From Allomyces arbusculus (taxonomy: Eukaryota > Blastocladiomycota > Blastocladiomycetes > Blastocladiales > Blastocladiaceae): DNA of 64,000 nt. The position numbers and the translations under genes were made by a program. Under the pieces are notes generated by a model, which was given only the letters and a program-made list of their open reading frames with translations, had not been told where the DNA came from and made no database searches. Below, one piece after another: positions 8,413-58,100 of the stretch (positions within the stretch are counted from its first letter, which is position 1; each line of letters opens with the position of its first letter). Where the stretch lies: positions 248,001 to 312,000 of the forward strand of contig JADHYV010000005.1 in assembly GCA_027604705.1 (NCBI GenBank), read 5' to 3'.

Positions 8413-9980
8413 ATGGCCAAGTACCTCGACCCGCCTGCCACACGTGCCGACGGCCTGGAGGTCGAGTATGCGCGCACGGTGCACCTTTTCGACTTTGATG
8501 ACAATGTCTTCCACATGCCAACGCCAATCCTGCTCTTCAACGACGAGGGCGAAACGTTCCGCGTCTCGACGGGCGCCTACGCGGTCCTGAAAGTGCCCGA
8601 GAACCGTGCCTTGCGCCAGCTGCACAACTACCACGTGCGGTTCCCCGACTCGTTGCTCGAGTTTGCCGAGAATCCGGACCAGAACGCGGAAAGTTTTTAC
8701 CTGCGCGATTTGAAGCGGGCGCTCGGAGTGGACGGAGACGGGACGACTGAGTCGACACGCAGTGACTGGAAGGGTCCACTTTGGGACCAGTTTGTTGACG
8801 CGCTCGCGACCGACCCGGACAATGTCTGGATCATTACCGCACGCTTGCACGCGCCCGAGACGATTCACGCTGGTCTGCAGTATCTCGTCGACCTGGGCCT
8901 GCTCCCCGTTGCGCCCGCGCTCGACCGAATCTGGCCTGTCGCAAACGACGGGTTCCGCTTACGGTTCGACCAAGAGTTTGCTCCGGCAACGCTGCTGCAC
9001 CTGCCGGGCGAGCCGCATATGCACTGGTCCACATTCAAGGCCGTGCTGATGCGCCACTTGCTCGACCGGTTTGCTCACTTCCCAGAGGGCCGCACGTTGT
9101 GCAAGTGTACGTTTGCGCCTGCTTCTTGAACACATCGAGCCGTGGCTCACATTCTCAACGATCACCTGGAACAGATTCCGACGATGACGCCAAGAACGTC
9201 GAGGCAACCTGCCAGCTCGTCCCAACGGTCCTCGCCGACCTCGAGCCGGTTCACCCAATCGACTTCCAAGTCTACTCGACGGCGCAGGTCCCCCTGCCGT
9301 CCATCACCTTCTTCACCTCCGAGCCCGGGATCGAATCGACCCGTGTGCCATTCGCCCTCGACTTTGCCGCCGACACCCCGAGCACCAAGTGGGCCACCGT
9401 CGACCTCCGGCTCAACACGTCCAACGCGCTGAAACTGCATGAACTCACGACCTTGCTCGCACCTCACTTTGCATCCGTGACGGCCACTGTCCATGACGTG
9501 CCGGAACCCGCGGCCGACCCTATCACCGTCATTCGGTACAAGGCGTCTACTGCGGGAAGTGGCGTACTGTGTGACGACACGTCGCTCGAGATCCCGGCCG
9601 CGGGCGCCGACTCGCCGTCGGCCAATGTCAAGTGGGTGCTCGACACGCTCGGCAAGCACGCGGGCGAGCGTGCCATGTTCGTGTCAATGCTCGGCGTGCG
9701 GTTTGGCGAGACGGTCGCGATTTACCGCGGCGAAGTGTGGGGCACACTTGTGGCAGACCCGCGCGGTGGGGACCGGATGCCGTTCAAGCCTGGGTTCCTG
9801 CCGTGGTTTGTGCCTGACGGCGAAGAGTCGGGTCGGACGTTGGCGGAGATAATTGCCGATGGCGAGAATTATGACGCGTACAATGCCCGGCACTTGGCGG
9901 TGCAGGACTTGTTGTGCGACAAGCCGTACGTGACGTGCGCGGTGCTCGAGGAGTGGACGGGCCCGTTCCAGCAGGAGTGA
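8413..9980 (+). CDS. HAD-fold protein (Swiss Army Knife RNA repair-like)
   Basis: Two exons, 8413-9106 and 9175-9980, joined by a 68-base intron (donor GTACGT, acceptor AACAG), encode 499 aa. The ATG at 8413 has a good context (GACCATGG). Near residue 27 is FDFDDNVFHMPTP, a HAD motif I with the DxDxN pattern. A middle strand WIITARLHAPETI matches motif II (T/S then Arg). The splice junction creates LCKYSDDDAKNVE, a plausible acidic motif IV. This order resembles the HAD_SAK (Swiss Army Knife RNA repair-like) family of fungi and bacteria. Asn in place of the usual Thr after the second Asp of motif I is notable. The second half (residues about 245-499) is a separate conserved-looking domain that I do not recognise. 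Substrate unknown; a phosphatase or phosphotransferase fold is inferred. Confidence 0.65.
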
Positions 9981-15484: not shown

Positions 15485-18400
15485 TCACTCGGTGGCCCCA
15501 CCCTTCATAAATGTCATCTTCTTCATCCAGTCGGTCGCGATCTGCTTCGTCTTGGTCGCGGCCTCGCGCGCGACTGCCGCCGCCGCGTCGGTCGTCATCG
15601 CATGCATGGCCCCTGGTGGCGCGCCGCTGCCCGTCGCCATCGGCGGCGCGACTCCCGGCAACATTGAACTGCTGCTGTTCGGCACACCCGCCGCCGTCGA
15701 CATGGGCGCATAATTGCCCGTGGACGTCGGTGCCGGCGCGGACGCGGCGCCGGTGGGCCCGGCGCCCATGAAGCTCTTGATGTTGAACGACGACATGGAG
15801 GTCGGGAACTTCATGCCCGCAGCGGCAGTGGAACCGGCGGTGGTGGTGCTCGTGGATGCGGGCACCGGCGACGGTGCGTTCGGGAAGTCATGCAGTGGCG
15901 GCGGCGGCGGCAACGGCCCTGTCGACGGCGGCACGGGCGACATATTGCGCGCAGCGGCCACGGCAGCGGGCCCGGCACTCGCCGGCCCCGACAGCGACGC
16001 GACCGACCCGCGATGATGATCGCTTGCCGGCGACGCCGTCCCGCCATGCCGCGGCATCGTCCCCTCGGGCGTCCCCGGCGCCGGCACCGGCGCGACGGGC
16101 GGCGGTGCCGCGGACCGGTCGAGAATGCGCATATTGTTGACGACAACCTCCAAGCTGGGCCCGGGCCCATCGACCCCTTCGAGCGCATTCAATTTGCGGA
16201 TAAAGAACTGCACGTCGATCAGGAGCGCGTTTTTGGCCGCGACCGAGTAAAGCCGGATGCCTTGTACTTCGTGCTCGAGGTGCACGTTGTACGCGCGGAA
16301 GACGGCCTGCATCACCGACCGCAGCGTCTCGCCCGGCAAGTACCGCGACAGGACCTTGTGCAATGTCGTGGTTTCCTTGACGAGCGCCTCCATCGAGGGT
16401 GTCGGGGGTGGGAGCGTCGCGGCGTGTTCGTCGGGCACGGGCTGTGCTTCCCAATCGACGGCACCGAATGCGTGACAGTGGAACATGACGCGCTCTTCCA
16501 TGATCGCGACCAGCTTAGCATACACGCCCTGCTGGTGGTCGGCATAGTCCTTGTGCACGCGGTCGTATTCGGACAAAAACACCGTCTGCTTCTCGACCAT
16601 GGCGTGCGCAATCGCGCGGCGCAAGTGCGGGATCAGGGCCATGACCGCGGCGAGCGACTGCGCCGTGATCGCCAAGTGCTTGGCGGTAATACTTTTGAGC
16701 CCGGCCGACTGCACGGCGCCGGCGCCCAAGATCATGTCGCACGCGCGCTTGTTAAAGAGCTTGAGCAATTCCGTGACTTTCTGGTGCACGTCCATGACGA
16801 GCGCCGGAATCGTGTCGAGGCACTGCAGGTACTCGCTGAGCATTTTCCCGAGCATCAGCACGACCGAGGCCACGGGGAACTGGTCGTCGCCGACAAACAG
16901 GTACTTGTTGTTGGCCGACAGTGACTGCAGCGACCCGTTCGAGTCGCTATGCAGCATGCGCTTCCGCCGGGAACTCGCCGTCGCCGTCGCTGTCCCCGCC
17001 GCATTCGGGCTCGCCGGATGCGCATCGACGATCGCGTCGGCGAGGACCTGGAAATCAATCAGCACGTCGGACTGGCCCCAATTCTCGTTCTCAATCAGCA
17101 TCCCGAGCTGTTTCATGCGTTCCATGTGGAAATGCGTCATGAACGCGCGCGACTGCGCCTGCAGGGCCGACTTGAGCCCGGTTGCCGCATGGTCCTGCAA
17201 GCACGCTTCGGACTCGCGAATGAAATCGGACGCGAGCTGGTAGAGCCGCGTATAGTCCTTGAGCGACAACTGCGCCGACTGGTCGCCGCGCGCCGTGAGC
17301 AGCGCCGCGCACCGTGAGTGGCACAGGTCGGCGACCACGTGCGTCACTTGCCGCGACGCCGCGACGAATTGCCGGAATTGCGGCGACTCGGTTGGGGAGG
17401 GCGCAGCGGTGCCGCGGGAGGGCGGGCTCAGCGCCGTGCTGGTGCGGCTCGAGGAGGGGGTGTCGACCCGGGGTGGTGAGTTGGGCAGTGGTGGAGGTGG
17501 CGGTGAGGCTGGACTGGTTCTGGCGCCGACCATGTCCTTGTCGCCGCCGACGGCCACGTGCTGCGCGTCGGCGAGCTTGATGCACGCTTCAAGGACGCGG
17601 TGCAGGTCGGTGACCTTGTGGATGTAGTCGTCGCACACGCGGCATACGGATTGCAGCACGGCCATGAACTCTTCGAGCGTGAGCGTCTTCATGGTGCGGC
17701 CGAGTTGGCTATGGACGAAGAAGGGTTAATTGGCCGCGATTGAAGCAGTGCACGAGAATGTGAAAGTCGCGTACTGCTTGTTGGCCGGTGATGCCGTCGG
17801 TTCGACCAAGATATCTGGTGGGTAGCTCTGTTGCAACTCGTGAGCACAAAGATTCAAGTCAAACAAAGCTCATACCCCATCCGTACCTTGCGAATCGTCT
17901 GGTTGACCTCGCCGAGCAACTTATCCTGGTACGTCGTAATCGCGCGACTCAACCCTTCGATCCGAATTAACCCGACCACTAGCGGCGCGAGCCGGTGCTG
18001 TAACTCGTCGTGCGCCAAGTGCGGGACCCGGATATGGTTGAGCAATGCATCGCACAAGTCGGCCTCCATCGACTGTCCAATCGTCTTGCTCATATCCAGC
18101 AACTTGGCCTTGAACTGCCCCATGGTCTTGACGCCGCGCAAGTCGCGCAACCCGGTCCCGGCGAGCGCCTGGTGCGACTCGGCAATCAAGTCGAGCGCGC
18201 CGACATAGTCCCCTTGCTGCAATAGCACTTGGATCATCGGGTAGGCTTGCCGCACCGCGGCCATGGCCTTGACCGTCTCGTACAGTTTGGCGACGTTCTG
18301 CCGGCGCTGCGTCATATAGACCGTCTCGAGCGCGCGTTTCGAGTGGACCAATGCGCGCGTCTTGAGCTGCGCGTCAAGTTGCTGAATCTGCGACAGGCAC

Positions 18401-19248
18401 TGCACGGTCTCGTCATGCAGCGCGTTCAGGTTACTCAGTGCCGTGAAAAACGACGTCGACCTTTGCGAGATTTCGCGCACGAGGTGCGCCTCGATGATTT
18501 CCAGGTGCCGCGACAGCGGGAACTCGAGCGCGTCCAAGTCGCCGAGCTCGATCCCGGTCGTGACGAGATCAAACACGCGCGGGTTCTCCATATTGAAATC
18601 GTCCTCGAAAAACACGCGCGGGACCGCATCCAGCGGATCGAGGGGCTGGCCCGGTGGCGGTGGTGGCGCTGGGGCAGGAGTCGCCGCACGGGATCCGGAT
18701 GCGGAGGCACGGCCGAGCAGGTTCGACAGCGGCACGCTCGGCGAACAGGCCACTTCCTCGTCCGCACCCGCAGCCGCGAGGTGCGTGACCGACGCGTGCA
18801 GTGCCGGCGCGCCCTGCGTGACGGCCGCGACCCCTTCGATCCGGTGGTAGTGGTATCGATCATAGTACCCAGAAATCGCCTTGATGTAGGCGTCAAAGTC
18901 GGCGAGCCGCACTTTCTTGATGGGCACAGGCGGGACGTGCACGCCACCGAGATCGAGTTTCCCGAATTTCGCGGCTTTCGGGTCGTTGAGCACACCCGAC
19001 AGCGACATGAGTTGTGCAGCCGAGGTCGTGAAGGACGGGGAACGGCGGTAGGCCGGCTGGGGTGACCCGGCGGCCACGGGCGAGAGCGACCCGGACGTGG
19101 TCGTGCTCGACAGGCCGCCAGTGACGGTCGAGGGCCGCGGCATCCCGCGCATCGACGTGACGCTCGCGTCGGGGCTCGCGGTGCCGCCACCGCCGGGCGC
19201 AGGGGACGCGCGCGGCGTCGTTGACGAGGAACGGCCGAAAAAGTTCAT
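15485..19248 (-). CDS. VPS54: VPS54, GARP tethering complex subunit
   Basis: Two exons, 19248-17876 and 17708-15485, join over a 167-base intron (donor GTATGA, acceptor CCATAG) to give 1,198 aa. Residues near 190-210 contain FFEDDFNMENPRVFDLV, the conserved N-terminal Vps54 motif, followed by a long helical tether region. The spliced segment QLGRTMKTLTLEEFMAVLQ and the later LIENENWGQSDV (about residue 660) match the C-terminal Vps54 domain. With VPS51, 52 and 53 it forms the GARP complex, which tethers endosome-derived vesicles at the trans-Golgi network. The ends are unusual: a Ser/Pro/Gly-rich N-terminus and a roughly 200-residue Pro/Ala/Ser-rich C-terminal tail beyond the conserved domain. 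Family assignment is firm. Confidence 0.88.
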
Positions 19249-20218
19249 GGATTCGAGAGCGGAACGGCGCGGATCAGGTGGAGAGACGGGAGGTGGCGGG
19301 TATGCGCGCCGACGACGACGGCCGTGGGGCCAGCCCAGGACGGTTGAGGGTGCAGAGTGGTGCGTTGATCACCGAGGATGGATTCGCGGCGTGGGGAAAC
19401 GGACACCGCGATGGCCCGTGACGGTTAATAAATGACGGCTAGAAATGGCGGGACCAGGACAGAGTACAAAGCGTGGTCAGCGTCGATGATTGCGGTACGT
19501 GAGCACATCGACAGCAGCCGTCGGATCTTGCTGGCCCATCTCGATGCCTTCACACCCGCCATCTTGCGAGACCCTGCCCCGTTGTCCCCTTCGCGGAGCA
19601 TCATGCTGGAAAGCCAAGGTGCATAGAGGTTTCGGCTGTTGGTTTGCATGGATGTTGGCTTGGGTGCGACAGCGAGCAACCATGGTCCGCTGTCCTTCAG
19701 AGCCGGGCAGCGTGCTGGTCGTCGGCTGGGCGCAGGCGAGTCGGCGCAACAGATTCCGGAAATTGTGAGCTGAGCGTGCAATACCTGAATTGCAGGCAGA
19801 CGGGTGCCCGTGTCCATCCATGCCGGGGCGCGATGGCCGATTGCAGTCGCTCCGTGGTCGGTTGGCGAAGGAGAGGAGCGGTCGAGCGCGTCTTGATCTC
19901 CTCATCGCGACCACGTGACTCTGACGACCTGCTTCTCCTCACCTGTTCTCCAGCTCCCCCGTTTGCTCTGCACTGTTCTCCTCTCACTTCAACCTGCCTT
20001 GAGGCGGTCAGCGACGGAATAGCGAACGGGTGTGGCCCTTTTGGAACGACGCGGTCGAACGCGGGGCGAACGGCGACTGTTGCGACATCGCCGCGACCAG
20101 GAAAGGAACTGGCAACAATCGGTCCGGGCGTGGAAAGTCTCGAGTTTGGTATGACAAAGATAATGGATTACGCGGTGCACGAGACGAATACAACAGCAAG
20201 AAATCGCCCAAGCGAACC
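19249..20218. other. Intergenic between VPS54 and FAM32A
   Basis: Nearly 1 kb holding the VPS54 promoter on the right side of VPS54 and the 3' flank of FAM32A. Short open frames occur on both strands, but none shows a recognisable motif or splices into a longer product. Confidence 0.4.
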
Positions 20219-25571: not shown

Positions 25572-28019
25572 TCATGCGTTCGGCGGTCGCTCCATCGACA
25601 CGCACGAACTGTACGTGTCCCCTACATCATCATCACTCTGCACAACCGGCGTATCGTCGACGGCGCGCGTCGCCGCTACGCGGTGCATGGCCTCCTGGCC
25701 CAAGTCGGCACTCGTACGCACTGACGTGGCCGTCGCGTCCGTGGCCGTGTGCGCCGAATGCACGAAGACCGCGGGCACCGGCCCACCGACAAGACTCGAC
25801 GTGCTCGACGTGGAACTCGTGTCACTCACATCGTCGTCATCGTCGTCGTCGTGGCCGGCCCTCGCCGGCGTCGGCGCGGCCACGGGCACAACACGCGCCC
25901 CACCCATCCCGAGCACCGGCACTTCTAAGAACTGCGCCTGCCCGGTATATGGCAACCCAAACGCCGACATGTGCGGCAGCGGCGGAATCGAGCCCGACTC
26001 GTTCGCGTTCGCCTGGTTCCAGATGGACCGCATGGTCCCGTAGGCCGCGGGGAACTGCGACGGTGTGGGCAGGCGGGCGAGCGACATGCCCGACGCGTCA
26101 GCGCGGAACATGGACGGTTGCGAGAGGTTCGGGTTCATGCGCATGAGCGTGTTCTTTTGAGTAAAGTCGCGCACACGGTCGGCGACGATATGGGAAATGG
26201 ACCGTTCCATGTCTGGGTACGACTTGAGGACTTGGAGCAGGGCCGTGCGGGTGAGGACGAACACGTGGCATTCGGAGATGGATATGATGTTGGCGGTGCG
26301 CGGGCGGTTGGTGAAGAGAGCGAGCTCGCCTACATTCGAGCGCGGGGTGAGTGAGGTGTAATGTGGGACGGAGGAGAGAGGGGGGCAAGACGGACCGAAG
26401 AAAGCTCCGTCAATCAGGTCGGCCCAGACGCGCGACAAGTCGTCGCTCACGACCTGAGCGTGGCCGCGGTTGATGCAATACCTGGACAGTGGGATCAAAT
26501 CAGTCAGAATAGCGCGATGACCAAGTCTCGGCAAACGCGGCACGAAACGCGAGCTCCTCGCACATTTCGTTGCCGTGGTCACCGCGGCGAATGATAAACT
26601 CGCCCGGCACAAAGACGACCTCCTCCATGCGCACGGCCACCATGCGCAGGAACCCGTCGTCGGCGCCTGGGCACGGTGGAGAAGCGTGAGGAGCATTCCT
26701 GAAAGTCGAAGTACGACGTTCGAGGTTGCTGTACCGTTAAACAGCGGAATCTGCATCGCGAAGTCCCCCAACGTCAGCCCTGCTCACAGAGGAGAGAAAG
26801 GGAAATGCACGAACCTTGCGCAATATTTCGCCACACGTCTTGAACGCAATCTCGGTGCGCAGGCACTGCGGCAAGTCGTCAAAATGGCCCTTGACGCGCT
26901 TGCCCTTGTGCAGTTTCCAAATGGCCTGGTAGTACTCGAGCACACGCTGCTGCGACTCTTCAGGCAGCCCATGGTCGTCCATGAAGTTGATGATCGACCG
27001 CACGTGCTGCTCGACGTGCGTCTTGGCCTCGAGCTTGTTGGTGAGCACGGAGACGACGAGGGCGAGGTAAATGCCAATGATCATGGCGCCGAGGCCGTTG
27101 TAGATGAGCGAGAGCACAATTTCGTAGACGTTGCTCGACTTGAAGATGCCGTAGCCGGGCATGGTCACGGCTATGAGTTCGCGGCGAACAGTGAGCATGG
27201 GTCAGAGGAAGAAAAACGACGGAAGCGCAGAGCAAACTGACCGTTCATGACAAACGCAAACAGGTAGACGTAGCGCGCGTACGGCGCGCGGTTATACTGC
27301 TCGGCCAGCAAGTTTTCGTGCGCCATGGTATTAGCCCAAATGTTGGACTCTTGAATCGTGATTTGCACCATCCACCAGATGCACCCGAGCCAGTGAAAGA
27401 TCATGAAGACGGCCAAAAAGACGAGCAGCATCGTGCCCTTTTTCGATGACTCGACCGACATTTCGCGCTCCTGCACGATATCGTACCAGCGGTACGCCTG
27501 GATAATATGCAAAAGCCGAATGTAGTCGGCCGTGACCGGGTCGACATACGCCTGCAAAATATACTCAAACGGGAAGAACCCGACGAGATCAATCGCGAAC
27601 CGGCCGCGCAGGTAGTGCCGGCGCACCATGGCGCGGTCAGTCACGAGCTTGCCGAGGTTGTCGTGGTAGGCCACGTGGAAGTGCAGCAGCAGGTCGAGCG
27701 AGTAGATGACAATCAGGCACGCGTCAAAGATCGTGTCGTTGGGCGACTCGAATATGGACGTGCGGAACGCAACTTCCATGGGCACGACAATCAGCTGAGC
27801 GATCGTCGCTGAGAGCACAAAGTAGCGCAGGAAGCGGTAGACGTGCGAGTCGGGGTGGATGATGGGGATCTTGTCGAGTGCAGCGAGCGTGGCACGCCAC
27901 GGCGAACTTGAAGCGGGATCAGCGACCGGTGCGTGCCCATTTGGTGAGCTTGCAGAATCTGAAGGACTGGTAGAAACAGGAGCAGGGACCGAATTGCCTG
28001 GAGTTGGGGTTGTAGCCAT
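25572..28019 (-). CDS. Cyclic-nucleotide-gated K+ channel (CNG/HCN type)
   Basis: Six exons, 28019-27242, 27170-26815, 26750-26735, 26666-26564, 26481-26396 and 26329-25572, give 698 aa with every join in phase. Helices S1-S5 span about residues 63-260. The pore loop, rebuilt by splicing, is NAVTMPGYGIF, with a GYG filter at 265-267, so K+ selectivity is expected. S4 is poor in charge (two Arg), suggesting weak voltage sensing. S6 and a C-linker (to about 378) lead into a cyclic-nucleotide-binding domain: PGEFIIRRGDHGNEM, then FGELALFTNRPRTAN at about 446-460. There GE, the Arg and the Thr after it match the phosphate-binding cassette; Arg-Thr is typical of cGMP-responsive sites. The Ser/Asp-rich tail is unconserved. 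Blastocladiella uses the K+ channel BeCNG1 downstream of a rhodopsin-guanylyl cyclase for zoospore phototaxis; this may be its counterpart. Confidence 0.85.
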
Positions 28020-28432: not shown

Positions 28433-29646
28433 ATGCTACGCCCGACCTCATTTGCCGCCCGCACTTCGTTGCGTACCATTGCCGCGCGCAGCGCCGTCTC
28501 GCTCAGTGGCATTGGCGTCGCACCGCCGCCCTCGATGATGAGACGTCCCTACACGGGTATGCGGCGTCGGAATTGCGGCTCGGCGAACGCGATCATACTC
28601 TGATGGCAAACCCCTCATGTCAGTGCCGTCCGTCGATTACGACAACAAGTATGCCGACAAGCTGGTGAAGAAGGCCCAGGCGTACGTCCTTTTTTTGGAC
28701 AACTTCTGACAGCGAGAGCAAGCTTTCGACTGATCGCAGTGCACGGGATCAACAGTGAAGGGTTCAAGTCGGTCGATGAAATGAAGGCCGCCTACAAGAA
28801 GCGCGCCGACGACGAGGTAGCCAGGAAGCGCGCCGAAGAGGACGCAGCGCAAAAGGTCAAGAACGAGAAGCTTGCCAAGACGATTGCGACCGACACGCTG
28901 CCATCGCACGTCAAGGTGTGTCTCGTCATTCTTTTCTTTCACTCGCGGAGTTTCGAATATGTTTCCTGACTTTTGCCAAATTAGAAACTCGGCGACCTTG
29001 TCCACCTCGACAAGCTGCAGTCTGAGTCCCCCGAGGTTATCGAGAAGCTGTGGGTCGGGTTCCACTCGAACAAAGACGCCGTCAGCGCCGTGATCCCGCG
29101 CGACATGTACCTGCAGCTGCACGGCCGCGCCAAACAGTACCCGCAGGTTTGTTTTTCCGTCGCGCAGAAGCGAGAACGTAGAACTGACCCGACGGTATCA
29201 CTGACTCTTCCACTTTTGATCCATAGTTTGTCCTACCCGTCTTCCACGGCGACGGCGCCGAAACCTTCTTGCTGCAGCACTCGGGCCACCAGACGTTTTT
29301 CACGTCGATGCTCTCCTACCAGACGCACGGCGCCGAGGCGCCTGTGCTCTTCACGCTCACCTACTACAAGGACCTGATGGACGACAAGGGCATTGTGCTC
29401 GTGCGCGGCGAGGTCGATCTCGACAAGCTGTCCATGGACAGCGCGCGCAAGCTCACCGAGGGCATGCGCAACTTCTACCTTGACCAAGAGTTTGTGCTCG
29501 TCGAGCAAATGTACCAGGACCCGAAAAAGTTTGATTTCAGCGACGTCATGGCCGTGGCACGTGCGCGCGCGCAGGCGCAGGCCGATCAGGCCAAGGAGGG
29601 CGAGGGTGCGGGCGAGGGCAAGAGCGCTGCGTCGGCAAGTGGATGA
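28433..29646 (+). CDS. ATP11: ATP11, mitochondrial F1-ATPase assembly factor
   Basis: The N-terminus MLRPTSFAARTSLRTIAARS is a typical Arg/Ser-rich mitochondrial presequence. Exons: 28433-28556, a second from 28624 to about 28681, a third ending at 28915, then 28985-29146 and 29227-29646. The core matches the ATP11 family: YADKLVKKAQ, KLGDLVHLDKLQSESPEVI, LWVGFHSNKDAVSAVIP, YPQ|FVLPVFHGDG and KGIVLVRGEVDLD. ATP11/ATPAF1 is a matrix chaperone that binds free F1 beta subunits during ATP synthase assembly. The join between the second and third exons does not resolve cleanly: the obvious donor (GTACGT at 28682) and acceptor (ATCGCAG at 28739) are out of phase, so there is a non-standard site or a sequence error. 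The tail is Ala/Gln/Glu-rich. Confidence 0.82.
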
Positions 29647-38736: not shown

Positions 38737-39853
38737 GTGTTGGGATGCGGAGGGGTGGCGATGACCTGTTGGGCCATATTTTAGTGTAGAATTTTTTGTT
38801 TCATTGCTCATGTCTGCCAAAGCTTTGGATTCGTAGCCGTCGACCTGATGTGGTCACAACGTCCCGACATGCCACATCGATCGTCGCCGTGAGGTGCCCT
38901 GCTCTGCACGCTTACCAACACGACCTGATGATCGTGGAATCTTGGAGAACTGCACCGGATGCTCTGTCGATTTGGTGTCCATGTCGCTGGCCGGTGCGAC
39001 GTCTCTCTGGTCAACTGCTGCGTCGCCCTTTGTGAGACTGAATTGAACTTATGCTGCGCATGCATTGAGGTTCGCCTACATATCCAAACCGGAAACCGAT
39101 CAAAAGGCGCGACCATCATTGTGATATCGGATTATGCCACGGCATTTTGAGACGTCCGCTTTGCAAATCAGGTCCCACAGCTGCAAGCCAGCAAGGGGAA
39201 CGCTCGATCTCAGACGCCGGGAGCGGCGTGCGCAGCAGGCACACAAGTTTCCAGCGTGTTCGACGCCGAGATGCAGACACATGCGCCCAAGTGCGGAGGT
39301 TGCTCGCTCAACGTGATGGTGGCCGCAAAAGTCTTGGTCAGATTGTTCAGCACAGCACACGATCTGCTAGTCCTTCGCACCGTCCAGCAGCGACAATCGC
39401 AATCCAGCAGCGCTCTCTCCAGTCTCAACCCCACTTTTCGTCGCCACACATTCTCGATGAGGCTGCACGCACATCGTGCCCGCTCAACCAAGCACGATCC
39501 CGGCGCCCGCTGCCGTTCTTGCTGCAACAACGGCCCCCGCAAGCACGCTGATCCCGATGCGAAATCCCTGCCATCCTTGTTTTCCGGTGCCCGCCGCCGT
39601 CGACGATTGCCCGCCCGACGGAGGGCAATAACCGCCGAATTGGTTATAAAGCGCGAGCGGGCCCGCATCGCTATTCACAAGGTCGTGCATCGATACCGCT
39701 GCATTGGACCTGCTTCCGACCCTCTCCCTCTCGTCGTCGACCTCTCCACCGTCGTCCTGCCAGCGCTCGTCGTCTGGCTCCATCAGCTTCATCGCCCGCG
39801 CACTCGCTGCATTTGCTCGTTTCCGCAACTCGACCAAGTTCATTCTCTGCAAC
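38737..39853. other. Intergenic upstream of the lactone oxidase gene
   Basis: About 1.1 kb. A plus-strand open frame crosses its right part and runs into the next gene's first intron in another frame; it is Arg/Ser/Pro-rich and lacks any domain. It probably contains the promoter and leader of the downstream gene. Confidence 0.4.
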
Positions 39854-41637
39854 ATGACGACCAGCACCGCAGCCATTTCGACCCCGTCGCATGTCTCGAG
39901 TCCGCCGTGCGCCGAGACGGCACGCATCAAGCTGCTCAAGACGCAGCTGACGGCAGAGCAAGGTGCGCCTCCTCACCTGTTCGCAGTCCATGCCGTGCGT
40001 TGCATCGCGCGCGCTCATGGAGTGGTGGTCGTCGCAGCGTCGCGGTATCATGTCCGCGGCAACCTCGTCAATTGCATCGAGCCGTGTGGCACAGTCGTCT
40101 GACCACCACCATTGTGGCCCCCGTCTCCCAATTTCCAGAACAAGCCGCCGTCTTCAACTGGGCGCACACGCGCGTGCTCGCGACCAACGACCAAGTGCGC
40201 CGCCCACGCACCGTCGCCGAACTGCAGGCGCTGGTCCGCGCGCACACACATGTCCGTCCCGTCGGGTCGCGGCTCACGTACGAGGCGCTGACGTGTGTGG
40301 CCGAGTCCGGCACGTCCGTGCTCGTCGACCTGAGCGCGATGCCGTCGGGGCTCGTCAACATGGACCCGGTCACGCACGAGGCCAGGTTCTGGGCGGGCAC
40401 GACCGTCGAGGGCGTGGCCAATACGCTGCGTCAGCACGGGCGCGCGCTCGACTGTTCCCCGGGGGTGATTGGCGTGCAGACGCTCGCCGGCGCGATTGGG
40501 ACGGGCACGCACGGGCAGGGGCTCGGCCAGGCGTTTGTCGGCGACTCAGTCGTGCAAATTGACTTGGTCCGTGCGGTCGATGGCGCGCTCGTACGGATTG
40601 GTCGCGGCTCGGCGCTGTTGGACGCGGCGCGACTGCATCTGGGCGTGCTCGGTGTCGTCGTGCAGATCACGTTGCGCACGCAGCCGTTGCGGATCTTGAC
40701 GTGCACCAAGGCCACGATTGCCGTGGACGATTTTGTCCAGTCGTTTGTAGACGTGAACCGCCGCGAAGAGTACGTCAAGGCGTGGTGGTTCCCGAACACG
40801 GACCTCGTGCACGTCTGGGCCGCGTCGCCTGCATCCGCACGGGATATTGCGACGTGGCGCGCGGCGGGCGGGAATCAGGTGGTCGATGTGGAAGCCGCAT
40901 CCGAGGACCGATTGGCGTCGACGATTCGCGACCTTGAAGCCAAGATGGCACGCGATACTTGCGACGACCAGCATGGCGGGCGGCAATTCGAAACGGTGGC
41001 CCGGTTCAAGCGTGCCGTGTCGGTGACGGGGACAATGCAGCAAGTCTACATGAAAGGGATCCCGGTCCCGCAAATCAACTGCGAGATTGCCGTCCCACTC
41101 GCGCGGTTCCACGAGGCCGTCGCCGCACTGCAGACGTGGCTTCGGCACACGACGCACCAGCTGCACTACCCGTTCATTTTCCGGTGCACGGGCGCGTCGT
41201 CGGCGTGGCTCGCGCCGCACCCGGGCCAGGAATTGTGCTATATCGGGTTCCTCGTCTACTTGTCCAAGGACGGTACTGCCACGCCCGGGTCGTTTGATTT
41301 GATGCACGAACTGCAGGCCGTGCTCGCGCCGTTGGGCGGCGCGCCGCACTGGGGCAAGCACATGGCGCTCGACGGCATGTACGCATGGCACGAGCTGTTC
41401 CCGCAGATCCCGGCGTTTGCTGCGCTCATGGACGAGTGGGACCCGATGGGCAAGTGGCAGAACGCGTTTACGCGCGACCTGTTTGCCGCGGTACCACGCG
41501 CGCTCGTCGACGCGGCTCGGCCACAAGTGCTGGCGTGGGCCAACTCGGTCAAGGTGCTCGACACGGCACCAAGCGACGTCGAGGGCATGAAGCAGAAGAA
41601 GCGAGTGATCCCGCCGCAACTGCAGGCGCACCTGTAA
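39854..41637 (+). CDS. Aldonolactone oxidase/dehydrogenase family flavoenzyme
   Basis: Two exons, 39854-39962 and 40139-41637 (176-base intron, donor GTGCGC, acceptor TTCCAG), encode 535 aa. A PCMH-type FAD domain occupies about residues 45-210: RRPRTVAELQALVRAH, VRPVGSRLTYEAL, then GAIGTGTHGQGLG for FAD binding. The C-terminal half matches the D-arabinono-1,4-lactone oxidase domain and ends with DPMGKWQNAFTRDLF. Relatives make erythroascorbate or ascorbate from aldonolactones, usually at mitochondria. In ALO and GULO a His in a GHSP-type motif binds FAD covalently; here the site reads GSRLTYE, without His. Plant galactonolactone dehydrogenase also has Leu there and binds FAD non-covalently. 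No clear presequence or membrane helix was seen. The substrate cannot be set from sequence. Confidence 0.75.
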
Positions 41638-50992: not shown

Positions 50993-53302
50993 ATCATGTC
51001 ACGCAGACGCGCTGTGGAAGCGGAGGGCTGGCTCCCTCTCTTGTCGTGTGGGCTCACTTTTTGCACCGTCATTTTTTTCACCCCACGCCGCTGGTGTGCA
51101 CGCGGCGCGTCGTCGGCCAATCCATCATATCATTGACTGTTGCTGGTGTTAGTTGTGGTTTCAGTGCCTGCGAGGTATCCATGCCGCTGTCAGGAGCGGT
51201 GAGCGGCCATTTCTTTGATCCTCGCCGCCCTTCGTCAACACATACACGCAGCTCTGCTCGTCCATAACCAGCGCAAACATGCTGCCATAAAGATCGTGCG
51301 TGTCGCTCTTTACCTTACCTCTCCCTGCGTGCAGCGAGATCCGTTCTCATGGCGATCCACGCGACCTCCGCCGTTCCACATCGCGTCTGCGCGCGTGCAA
51401 CCGGCCAGCCGCCCGTTCACGTCGTCCATCTTGCATCGACCATCCCGCAAGCGTCCGCGCCCAGCACAGGCTCGCTCCCGGCTCCACATAACAGAGCAAG
51501 AGAGGAAGGGTTCGCACATCGCGAGCCCACGAAGAGAATCGCGAGATACATTGAACGAGGCTCGTATTTTTCACACCAACCACTCTCCCTTCCACTTGAG
51601 AAGCAGCGAACACCCGACCGGCAGCATCCGTGCCGGATTGATGATGCTGGATGCATGGCGGTCAATCTTGTTGACCCCCGCACCCATGCACGAGACCCTG
51701 CCACTTGCACGACCTGCACCGGTGAACGCCGAAGGATGGCGCTGCGGTAATTCGAACGGTGGTGCCCACGCGGCTACCGCCGGGCCCTTCCGCGCGATCG
51801 GCTTGTTCGGCAGCGCGAGTGGAACGTACAAGGAGTGGGCGGGATCGAGGAACGGGAGCAGAGCGACACGACGCGTCGCGAGCACGACGCCATCGGCTCC
51901 ACCACGCGCGCACGTGCCTGGTCGTCGCTCTCCACCCGGCCAGGACCTCCCTGAGCTCGGACTGGGTTGACGTGGAAGCGCGCGAGAGGGTGGTCTGACA
52001 TCAGTGTGCCGCACGACGCGTCCCGTACCGCGTCCAAAAGCGTCCACGCAGCCATCTTGGGCCACCAATCCCTCGGAAACAATCTTTGCCTGCACCGATC
52101 GGCGTTGGTCATCGTTGGTTTGGTGGGAAGACAACCTGGAGAATCACAAGCGCGCCGCAAGCATGCGGAGCCCCACGACCGCGTCGTTTTGGCCGTTGAA
52201 CACGACGCCGTCGCGCACCTCCATGCCGGCCCTCGCCGACTTGCGGGCCCCAATTCCGCCCACGGTAGCCAGGCGCCAGCATGGTGCAGAAAGGAGGCGC
52301 AGTTGTGCACGCGGGGGTGGAGAAAAACAGGTCTGTCGGCGAGAGTCAAGAGGCGAAAGAGACGATGAATGGCATCGTTGCGATGTTCGATTGGTGGTGG
52401 TCGCTTGCTGCGGCTGGCATCAAGTCAGCATCAATCAACCAACAAAGCGCCCCCGACTTGTTGCAATCACCCGCAATCGACTAGCGACAACATGCTGCGG
52501 CACCCGTGCGGGCCGGTGTGCGAATCGTCGCGGTGGATGACCAGAGACCGGCGGCGCCCGCGACGCGACGTTCGTTGAGGCACGACAGCCGGAGCGTCCC
52601 AGATCGACGTTCACTGCGTCCCCCGCGGGGAACGCAGGCACCGACTCTCGGCCGCAGCAGCAACGCACGCGCGCCGAATCAAGGAAGGAACAAAGTTGTG
52701 CCCCGCGCCCGGTCGAGAAGGAGGGCGCAAAGTGGGGCGGGCCCATGCGGCGACCTTTCGGCACGTCTTTTGAGCCAGTGGCCACCCCCGCATGAGCACG
52801 AACCATGCAGCCGGCCGGCGATTTACCGCAGCGACGCCAACCACCATTTCTCCATGCACCACCCTGCACGCCGCAGTCCGAATGCTCGCCCCGGCCGCCG
52901 CAAACCCGTCCGCCTCGACCGCCAAACCCGTCTTGAAGCCAATTGTGGCCCCCGCAATGACGTCGGACTCGGGGCCCCGCGCGTGCACACGCGCGCTGCG
53001 GCCAGCAGGTCTCCGCGCACCGCCGTTCCGCGCCCGTTGGCCGTGGCGTGCGTACGGGCTCCGCCGCCATGGATTTCGTCCTCCACCGTCGTTGCGCGCG
53101 GCTGCGGTAGCTCGTCTAACGGTGCTTGCGGGGTATGGACGCGCGGGGGCTCGCTCATAAAGGCGCGACGCCCCACGTCGTCCCCCGCGCCATCTTTATC
53201 CAACGTCCCCGGTCGGCATTCCCCTCCTCCACCCACCCACCCACGCGTCTCCACCCTCGCGCACGCGTTGATCCCTGCTGGACCGGAACCGACCCGTGCC
53301 CA
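50993..53302. other. 2.3 kb without a supported gene
   Basis: The largest gene-free stretch in the window. Open frames exist on both strands (for example minus-strand 52134-51571 and 52988-52611, with some plausible-looking segments), but none has a domain, and no chain of GT-AG introns joins them convincingly. The right end holds the promoter of the zinc-finger gene, with a TATA-like CTTTATC near 53193. A species-specific gene cannot be excluded. Confidence 0.35.
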
Positions 53303-54613
53303 ATGCTCTCGATGCTCGCCACCCCCGCGGCACCCGCCGCCGCCGCCCCCGCGATTTCAGCCCCGGCTTACGTGCCGCTGCCCGCCGGCCCCACCGCCAC
53401 GGCACCCACGACGACGACCTCGACGCCGACGACGGGCGCGGCCGCGGTCCGCCTGCGTCCTTACGTGTGCCACGTCTGCACGCGCCGGTTCTCGCGGCTC
53501 GAGCACCTGCACCGGCACCATCGCACGCACACGGGCGAGCGGCCCAACGCGTGCCGGTTCCCCGGGTGCACGCGCCGGTTCGCACGGTCCGACGAGCTGA
53601 TTCGCCATGAGCGCGTACATACGCGCCCCGCCAAGGGTCGCGCTGCCGGTGGGAAGGGTCGTGGTGCAAGGAAGGCCGCGACTTCGGCGACGCCGTCGTC
53701 GGCGGAAACGTCGCGGTCGGCGACGCCCGAGATCGTGGAGGACGCGCCCATGGACGCGGCGGCGGCTGCCGCACTCGTGCAGATCAGTATGGCTGCAGTC
53801 GCTGCGCGCGAAGTCGAGCCCGAACCGCACGCGCACCACCACCACCACCACCTCGCGTCGCCCATGTCCCCCGCGTCGACTCCGATCGAGCACCTCCACC
53901 ACCACGACGACCACGCGCCATCCTCCTCCATGGACTCGACGAGCATGTGGTCCCCGCCGGACCACGCCTCCGAGCGACGGGACAGCACCGCGTCCACATC
54001 CTCCTCGTCCACCGGCACGACGACGCACACCTGCCCGCATGCCGGGTGCGGCAAGACCTTTTCGCGCAATGCGCACCTGACGCGACACCTGCTCAACCAC
54101 GCGCCGACGCGGTCCTACGCGTGCGCGCAATGCGGCCGCCAATTCTTCCGCCGCGACTGCTGGCGGGAACACGTGCGCGGCGTCCACGCCATGGTCCCGC
54201 CGCCCGAACCTGTTCCGGTCGTCCCACACCCGGCAACGCCCGCATGGGCATGGACACCCTACCCGTCGCCCGTCGCGTCGCCGCAAATGCCACGTGCGAA
54301 CCCGGTTCCGCGGACGGCCAGTGCCGCGGCGCCGTGGGCTGGGGTTGTCCTCCCGCGGCCAGGGGTGGGTGGGAACGTGCCGCCCATGATCTCGCCAATG
54401 ATGATGATGCCGGCGCAGGAGAGGGAAGGAACAGTTGTGCTCCCGCCGCTCGCACCGGCAGCAGCGGCGCCGCAGCACGGGTTGGCGCGGCTGCCATCGT
54501 TGCGGAACGCGGTCCCGCTGGAGTACGCGGCTGAGGACGAGGCGGCGGTGCCCGGCGGCGCGCCGCATTCACTGGTGCTGTCGCCGATCTTGGTCACGAG
54601 CTCGCTGTTCTAG
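53303..54613 (+). CDS. C2H2 zinc-finger transcription factor
   Basis: An intronless frame of 436 codons from the ATG at 53303. Two adjacent fingers at about residues 54-107 read [20 protein letters not shown] then the linker RTHTGERP and [20 protein letters not shown]; the second with C-x4-C and the pair layout resemble Mig1/CreA/Egr-type fingers. A second pair lies at about 240-300: [20 protein letters not shown] and [19 protein letters not shown]. Between the pairs is a His-rich and Ser-rich low-complexity linker. The C-terminus is Pro/Ala/Met-rich, a possible effector region. It should bind GC-rich DNA in the nucleus; target genes are unknown. The frame stays open upstream, but the chosen ATG is the first before the Ala/Pro-rich start of this protein. 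Confidence 0.75.
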
Positions 54614-55183: not shown

Positions 55184-58100
55184 TTACGACCGATACCGCT
55201 TGCCCGGCGGCATCCCACCATCGTCGTCACGGCGCTTCCGACGGCGCGGGTCGCGCGGATCACGCGGCTCGTCGAGCGTCGCGCCAAGCACTGGAACCTT
55301 GCTGTTCGAGTCGAGCAGTGAGAGAATGCCCTGCACGTCCAAGAACGGGCCTATTTACCACACATCACACATTGTTAGTCGAATTCGCGTCCAACTTCTC
55401 CACCCAAACAATCTACGCACCCGTGAACGCCTCGGGCGGTGGCAACTTGCGTAACAACTCCACCATCACCTCCATCGGCGTTTCCACGACCGGCGGGACC
55501 GTCACGGGCTGTGGGACGCCAGACCCACCACCCGCCGCCGAACTCGAACTCGCTGCCACCTGCTGCTGCTGCGACGGCGCCGGCGGCACGTGTTGCCCGG
55601 GCCCCTGGTACTCCAAATTCCGATCCTCCTGAACAAGCCGCTGCGAGAGCGCCGCCGCGGCCCGCGCGCGGTCCTGATGCGCGCGCATTTCGTCCGGCGC
55701 CATCGGTGGCGGGCGGAACACGGCCCACCCGCCGAACCGTGTATTGGGCGCGGGCGTCGCCCGCAGCGGGACCCATTCGTCGAGCACGCGTTTCTTGGTG
55801 CCCTCCAAGTCCATTTGCGCACCAGTGTCGGCGGCGGTGCCGTTCGCGTCGGCCTGCGCCGTGGGCGTCGCTGCCGACGGTGCAGCAGAGGCGCCGAGCG
55901 CGGCAAGTTGCGCGACCACGTCCTCGCCCAACGCGCCCAGTCCGGCAGCACCGGTCCCGTACGCGAGCGCGGCGGCAGCGGTCGCCGCGGCGGGTGCGAC
56001 GCCGAGATCGTGTGTCGCGACACAGTCGAGGTTCAGGAACGCGTACCGGCGTCGCGCGTGGTCGAGCGCACCGGCGGCGTCCGGGAACGCCTCGTCCATG
56101 TCGCGTTCGTGCGCGGTAAGCGTTTTCAAGTCGGCCGTCTGCGCGTAGACCGAGGCCAACTTCTCGGCAAGCCGCTTTTGCGCGTCTTTGCTGAGCGCCG
56201 GCGCGCGGATCGCCGTGACCAAGGTCGACGCGAGGTTTGTGTCGTCGCGCACGGCCAGGAGCCAGTCGGCGAATACGAGCAGTGGTGCCGGGTCACTCGG
56301 GAATTGCGCGCACGCGTACGCGAGCAAACGTTTGGGCACGGCCGCGTCGGCGCCGCGGTGGTACTCGAGCAGCGCCGAGGCCGCAATGACCTGCCACGTG
56401 CAGTACCGCATGTTACGCGCGCGTTTGAAGACGGCGCGCATTTCCTTGATCCCGGACGCGCGCGCCGCGTGCCGCATGTACTGGATCCAGCACATCGCGA
56501 GCTTGTCCTTGGCGCGCTGGACGGCCGGGGATGCGGGCGGCGGCGCGGAAGTGGTGCCGGCGGGTGCCGCGGGAGCGGATGAGTCCGCCGCCGGCGAGTC
56601 GCGGTCGAGCGCCTTGTCGACTTCGGCGGTCCAGTACGTGACGAGCGACTCGTAGACGCCCTTGCTCTTGGCCGGATCGTCTTTGGTCTCGTGCAGGTCG
56701 GCCAGGGCAAAATGGACCAGAAAACTACATGTTTTTTGTTGCATTTCGCGGCGCGAGTGGGGAACGAGAAGAAAGTGCGCGACAAGGCGCCACCCGAGCG
56801 AGATCATCGACCAATCATGATGATGAAGGCGCGAAACGTACCCGAGAGTGGAAGGGATCGACGAGAAGCGACGAGCGGCGCAGAGGAACGAGAGCATGAA
56901 GAACAGCTTGTCAACTCACAGTACAAATACGGTGATGAACGGGTTTGGCGACGCGGTCAGGCGGATCGGCTGGCCGGCCGACTTGGACGGCTGCTGGAAC
57001 ATGGCCACTACCATCACCACCGTGACGCTGCTCGCACCCGCGAGCAGAGCAACCCGCAATAGAATGCCCGCGCATAGTCGGGTCTCCTTCTTGAGCGAGC
57101 GGAAACGGCAAATGACAGGAACCCAAAGCACAAAAACCAAAAAAACTGCGCCAATCGAGCAAGTGACAAGTGTATCCAGATTGTTTCCAAAAAGTAATCT
57201 TGACGATTCGAGTCGTAGCATGCCAGCAAAGAGCCAGGTCGGACAAGATGGGCCGAAGAATGGGGGAAGAGGACGAGGAGCCCATTTCCAACAGCGTCGC
57301 GGTCGCCACTGAGCCGCGCCAGACCAAACCGCACTGTGCCGCGCCGTGCCGCGCCAGCCCGTAAGAGAAGGAGAAATGCAACCCACCTTCCAGGGCACGC
57401 CTCGCACCCGGCCTTGAGAATCGTGAGGGCCTCGGTCGACTTGTTCATGGACGTCGCAAACATGGCAAACTCGTACCACAGTTCCGGGAAACGGCACAGA
57501 CAGTTGATCGCCTGCCAGTAGGTCCACGAGACGCGCTGGTAGAGCGTTGCCATATCCTCGTACTTGAATGGGTTCGACTTTTCCCACGACAACAGTTTGC
57601 GCCATTGCGCGAGCAACGCGCGCTCGCTGGGCGAGAAGGTCGGTGGGGTCACGATCGGCGTCACGCGCTCGAGCGGGTCCCACAGCGATCGCAGCGTGCG
57701 GCCGGCGTTGCGCGCGGCGAGGTACGCCTGGTTGCGCTCTTGGAGGAGCTTTCGGGCCTATGAAGACGCGGGAGGTCGTGGTGAGTCGGGAGCGGGACCG
57801 AGAGCTACAGTAATCACAAACAGCTCGCCAACCGTACCTGCGGCCGACTGATCCCGCTCTCAAACGTATCCCACTCACGCCACAGCTGCTCGACATTCTG
57901 GATCGGCAGCGTGACAGCGCGCTGGTAGGCGGCGCGGATCTCATTCTGCTTTTCCTGGTGCTCGTACTCGGAATTGACCTGTATCGACTTCAAAAAAGAC
58001 AGGTAGTCGTTCCAGACCGAGAACGAGTTGCGGTCATGCGCAGCGTGCGAAAGCACAAAGTCGTAGGCCTGCTTGATCACGCCGCGGCCTTCGTGCGCGA

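Follow-up and report, generated by a model that had tools for sequence, protein, structure and literature searches.

Blastocladiomycota, Sanchytriomycota and some chytrids are reported to have the CyclOp light-sensing system (PMC9616733, PMC8371127). In Blastocladiella emersonii, the channel BeCNG1 (GenBank AIC07008.1, as given in PMC9616733) is reported to carry GYGD, to resemble human CNGA1 and, within sea urchin CNGK, the third repeat, and to conserve the residues of the cGMP-binding site; the same report mentions one rhodopsin in the draft genome of this species (Avelar et al. 2014, PMC4046227). Two putative cGMP-gated channels were reported in 2025 from Rhizoclosmatium, with the statement that their currents could not be recorded (PMC12264004). 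The channel partner of the rhodopsin-cyclase in fungi has so far rested largely on one candidate, BeCNG1. Among other channels of this kind, the bacterial cyclic-nucleotide-gated K+ channel SthK is described as gated by cAMP, cGMP being an extremely poor partial agonist (PMC6093708), and the CNG-like channel CNGK of sperm is described with a GYG or GFG filter, threonine replacing valine or isoleucine in three of the four pore motifs of the sea urchin protein (PMC4749565). With regard to the filter itself, the second threonine of the K+ signature is reported to form the fourth ion site, and GYG alone gives no K+ selectivity in HCN channels (PMC2766643).

The window, that is, the whole 64-kb stretch of DNA analysed here, carries on its minus strand an intact gene (28019-25572) whose six exons encode a protein of 698 residues (698 codons and a stop). 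The five introns (71, 64, 68, 82 and 66 bases) are all GT-AG, and a splice-aware aligner supplied with residues 1-520 of the same model returned the same five, which is a consistency check and not an independent one. Exon 1 (27242..28019) comprises the start codon, a variable N-terminus, S1-S5 and the first part of the pore helix, with the same junction in gene model and aligner. Intron 1 (27171..27241, 71 bases, phase 1) lies within the pore helix, at the column and phase also found in three paralogs described below. The end of the pore helix, the selectivity filter T-M-P-G-Y-G-I (27145..27165, aligned without gaps to TTIGYGD of SthK), S6 and the C-linker are encoded by exon 2 (26815..27170). 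Exon 3 (26735..26750), recovered by both model and aligner, has only 16 bases, which encode IPLFN and supply the first base of a Gly codon at the start of the cyclic-nucleotide-binding domain; exon 4 (26564..26666) adds the first beta strands and exon 5 (26396..26481) a further part of this domain. Exon 6 (25572..26329), assigned from the gene model and Pfam, holds most of the phosphate-binding cassette, the C-helix, a low-complexity C-terminal tail and the stop codon. Its share of the cassette (26286..26329) consists of the final two bases of an intron-split Gly codon followed by ELALFTNRPRTANI, Arg-Thr lying at 26300-26295.

Both Pfam features of the CNG/HCN/KCNH superfamily were detected in the protein, Ion_trans at 34.6 bits (cut-off 25) and cNMP_binding at 65.6 bits (cut-off 27.5), and all reported Pfam matches fell within residues 62-484, which leaves the C-terminal tail with no assigned domain. 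The PDB search returned 182 distinct sequences at E<=0.001, and the likeness is therefore not due to chance. SthK was the best match (150 bits, 6.7e-43), from an ungapped pore through an aligned C-linker to the binding domain, and this search gave no significant alignment of SthK with the voltage-sensor-like half. Among the best 60 of the 182 sequences were HCN1 (139 bits), CNGA3 (126 bits), CNGA1 (117 bits) and a chain at 147 bits, which we take to be TAX-4. In S4, alignment by eye placed Arg, His, Gln and Arg where CNGA1 has four successive arginines in the gating register. The phosphate cassette, FGELALFTNRPRTANI, contains both the conserved G-E and the conserved R-T. Vertebrate CNGA channels share this architecture and a cassette reading RTANI, whereas their filter is T-I-G-E without the GYG that the window channel has kept. 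Six predicted helices, a C-linker and a cyclic-nucleotide-binding domain with an intact phosphate cassette thus show, at the level of sequence, that the window gene encodes a CNG-family channel. The sequence-only reading, which had located a CNG-type channel gene here with a GYG filter, a charge-poor S4 and Arg-Thr in its cassette, was borne out on each of these points. An HCN or KCNH identity was also considered and is not favoured, S4 being devoid of the charge series; S1-S5 taken alone scored best with KCNH1 (51 bits).

That reading had further proposed a K+-selective channel, a claim for which we found no support, since the filter reads TMPGYGI and not TTVGYGD. Compared with the K+ consensus T-T-[VI]-G-Y-G(D), the first threonine and GYG are kept, methionine stands for the second threonine, proline for valine or isoleucine, and isoleucine for aspartate. 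The position of the fourth-ion-site threonine is accordingly a methionine, followed by the proline. A preference for K+ is possible given the retained GYG. In SthK the same stretch is TTIGYGD. The window channel also differs from CNGK, which is one chain of four repeats while the window channel has a single repeat, and where CNGK has threonine for valine or isoleucine the window channel has proline.

The proline is not confined to this gene. In the genome (25.9 Mb, 197 contigs) we detected 31 cyclic-nucleotide-binding stretches, 40 Ion_trans stretches and 46 stretches resembling the window channel at E<=0.1, among them five of its own exons. Nine channels were modelled, and the filter could be read in eight of them; the ninth, on contig 23, has an unreadable filter and is outside the counts that follow. 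Four channels have a filter of the form T-x-P-G-[YH]-[GA]: the window channel on contig 5 (TMPGYGI), those of contigs 142 and 33 (TVPGYAD in both) and that of contig 2, at 510 kb (TAPGHAD); all four have R-T-A in the cassette. The other four have TTTGYG, with the threonine for valine or isoleucine also seen in CNGK. Two of these, on contigs 35 and 26 (the L046/L044 pair, 81% identical in the aligned core), read TTTGYGD, are the only ones with GYGD, and have CEASA in place of R-T-A. The remaining two, on contig 16 (TTTGYGH) and contig 15 at 340 kb (TTTGYGR), combine TTTGYG with an Arg-Thr cassette and have no aspartate after it. Narrow word searches of the literature (PGYG with selectivity filter; proline, GYG and CNG) found no published proline filter. 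Prokaryotic or viral relatives of the group were sought with patterns, a weak method that needs short conserved peptides, from an alignment of three of the four proline-filter channels (contig 33 left out), and none was confirmed among 135 and 82 matches.

Besides these, nine loci on contigs 2, 5, 19, 24, 29 and 36 (L007, L008, L074-L078, L080 and L083) look channel-like, each matching a C-linker or a nucleotide-binding domain, and are kept out of the channel counts. No GYG filter was seen by eye in the ORFs of L007, L074, L075, L076 and L083, where a filter split by an intron would escape the motif scan; L076 reads FFDFRDT at a possible filter site. L079, L081 and L082 gave no channel match.

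Phylogeny grouped the four proline-filter channels together only in the absence of one long branch. In a tree of 12 rows, from which the long branch of contig 23 was left out, the group was recovered with support of 98/97. A constraint placing the window channel beside the channels of contigs 35 and 26, which carry GYGD, was rejected (p 0.0199), as was one placing it with SthK (p 0.0277) and, marginally, one placing it with the pair of contigs 16 and 15 (p 0.0421). When contig 23 was included (13 rows), a node with 93/95 support united CNGA, SthK and the TTTGYG channels apart from the window channel, for which this tree gave no firm place of its own. The reference chains entered these trees as their aligned parts only, SthK without its first half. 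As the branch of the window channel is long too, the backing that these trees give to a four-gene group is moderate.

Intron positions gave mixed evidence for this group. The pore-helix intron (column 270, phase 1) is present in all four proline-filter genes and in none of the four other modelled channels with a readable filter; the TTTGYG genes have an intron five columns later (phase 1 in contigs 35 and 26, phase 2 in contig 15) or none there (contig 16). For contigs 142, 33 and 2 the window protein served as the guide in modelling, a possible bias towards common junctions, though the models have canonical splice signals. Those of contigs 142 and 33 include two doubtful cassette introns one codon apart, and a 195-base 'intron' in the latter is probably coding. 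Two further introns of the window gene are absent from its proline-filter paralogs, one at column 390 (phase 0, common to contigs 26 and 16) and one at column 461 (phase 1, common to contigs 35 and 26). They may be ancestral and later lost in the other genes. Since these two columns point towards contigs 26, 16 and 35, intron positions were dropped as a proof of the group.

From these comparisons we rather favour the view that the window gene encodes a divergent CNG-family subunit of a proline-filter subfamily and is unlikely to be the direct BeCNG1 counterpart. Set against the published description of BeCNG1 (PMC4046227), the predicted filter of the window channel fits less well than those of contigs 26 and 35: it reads GYGI, preceded by M-P, where GYGD is reported, and these two channels carry TTTGYGD. 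Orthology of the window gene, as put forward by the sequence-only reading, would imply a K+-selective channel that cGMP opens and that would hyperpolarise the zoospore upon illumination of the rhodopsin-cyclase. The GYG filter, the Arg-Thr cassette and the poor S4 are in line with it, as are the two intron positions common to the window gene and the GYGD channels, and it could stand if the aspartate had changed to isoleucine in the window gene. Contigs 26 and 35 are themselves doubtful counterparts because they do not have the Arg-Thr expected of a cGMP site, the site residues being reported as conserved in BeCNG1 (PMC4046227), while the window channel has both G-E and R-T. The clade test nevertheless rejects a grouping of the window channel with the two TTTGYGD channels, and its score with CNGA1 (117 bits) is below those of contig 35 (211), contig 142 (about 195) and contig 16 (175), the four channels for which it was searched. 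We thus consider a direct counterpart unlikely, and the specific claim of a K+-selective BeCNG1 counterpart is not supported. CNGA1 similarity had been tried as a mark of BeCNG1 orthology and was dropped: the proline-filter channel of contig 142 also scores high and only the window channel scores low.

The nature of the ligand is a separate question. SthK, too, has a -PRTA- cassette in the alignment with the window channel; as SthK is hardly opened by cGMP, Arg-Thr does not decide for cGMP, and the earlier claim of a channel opened by this nucleotide has no support from the cassette. The window channel might then be cAMP-responsive or weakly ligand-dependent, similar to SthK or HCN, and have no role in phototaxis. 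The C-helix, ADRVRDF, would agree with this, as in our by-eye alignment Phe tentatively occupies the place of D604 of CNGA1; ligand preference is however not readable with certainty from such residues. That the best PDB relative combines Arg-Thr with gating by cAMP (PMC6093708) points the same way. On balance we regard such a cAMP-type channel as improbable.

A division of labour between subunits was also envisaged, in which the window channel would be a modulatory, ligand-binding subunit co-assembled with TTTGYGD subunits, pore and ligand binding being shared out in a manner likened to the sharing of tasks between vertebrate CNGA and CNGB subunits. The complementary motifs speak for it: TTTGYGD with CEASA for R-T-A in contigs 26 and 35, R-T-A in all four proline-filter channels. 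Contigs 15 and 16 however join a TTTGYG filter with Arg-Thr in one protein and make such a division unneeded, and we judge it hardly probable. The same low credence is given to the wider proposal of a blastocladiomycete-specific CNG subfamily with a T-x-P-G filter whose members would form, with the TTTGYGD subunits devoid of R-T, a heteromeric phototaxis channel dividing pore function from ligand sensing. If it were true, a proline one residue before GYG or GYA would alter which ions pass. Independently of this proposal, a proline in the filter would offer a natural test of how far a K+ filter can change.

Under the favoured reading, that of a divergent proline-filter subunit, the window protein would assemble into a CNG-family tetramer in a blastocladiomycete-type zoosporic fungus and would belong with at least three paralogs of the T-x-P-G-[YH]-[GA] filter type. 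Binding of cAMP or cGMP in the four subunits would move the C-linker and open the pore, as in SthK and CNGA, so that a cyclic nucleotide would open or modulate a cation pore with less than strict selectivity for K+. Zoospore signalling is a possible function of such a channel, by itself or together with TTTGYGD subunits. A role in phototaxis is possible from the co-occurrence with rhodopsin-cyclases.

The prediction that a rhodopsin-guanylyl cyclase fusion should exist elsewhere in the genome proved correct, in two copies, a finding that is also in line with BeCNG1 orthology of the window gene. Type I rhodopsin matches were found at two places only (contigs 7 and 15), each adjoining and in line with a guanylyl cyclase domain. 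The corresponding models have 622 and 629 residues and five exons each, with splice junctions chosen by eye and an uncertain 3' end on contig 15, and they are 62% identical over 628 aligned columns. Both keep the Lys of DIGAK, presumably the retinal lysine, as well as the cyclase E and C positions, which we take to specify a guanylyl and not an adenylyl cyclase. The cyclase domain of the contig 7 gene scored 355 bits with PDB entry 6sir and 353 bits with 6ao9, to which it is close and non-identical; we assume these entries to come from Catenaria and B. emersonii, respectively. Family-level assignments gave two carotenoid-oxygenase and three squalene/phytoene synthase loci, from which a supply of retinal is plausible, and 17 stretches match type I phosphodiesterases, a numerous family here. 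Given the two rhodopsin-cyclases and these accompanying genes, the organism very probably has the CyclOp system, as judged from its gene content. Rhodopsin-guanylyl cyclase fusions and CNG-family channels, the window channel with its GYG and Arg-Thr among them, are thus common to this genome and B. emersonii; the present genome differs by its two rhodopsin-cyclases where one rhodopsin is reported in the B. emersonii draft (PMC4046227), and the window channel by its TMPGYGI. On the grounds of this rhodopsin count and of the non-identity of the contig 7 cyclase domain with 6ao9, B. emersonii itself was rejected as the organism. Because the two rhodopsin-cyclases coexist with eight or more CNG-type channels whose filter is of the K+ type or close to it, the partner of the former cannot be deduced from GYG and Arg-Thr alone.

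On contig 15, the channel with TTTGYGR and Arg-Thr (339172-341033, L066) lies about 28 kb from the rhodopsin-cyclase (369332-371529, L030). By this closeness it can be nominated as a candidate partner, a post hoc choice in which chance may play a part.

Within the window, 20 ORFs were scanned with Pfam; 13 had no match, and no light-signalling family was among the matches of the other seven. These are an ATP11 family gene, detailed below, and ORFs at 8799-9977 (+), 15488-19368 (-, two ORFs), 39151-41634 (+), 53120-54610 (+) and 55416-56915 (-), matching Ham1 family, Vps54 (two ORFs), D-arabinono-1,4-lactone oxidase, C2H2 zinc finger and Suf, respectively. Outside the window, about 58 kb from the channel gene, contig 5 carries a carotenoid oxygenase of the RPE65 family (213366-215112). 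The divergent neighbour of the channel gene is the ATP11 family gene (mitochondrial F1-ATPase assembly; 29227-29643 on the plus strand, 71 bits), with probable upstream exons, recognised by eye, from about 28391.
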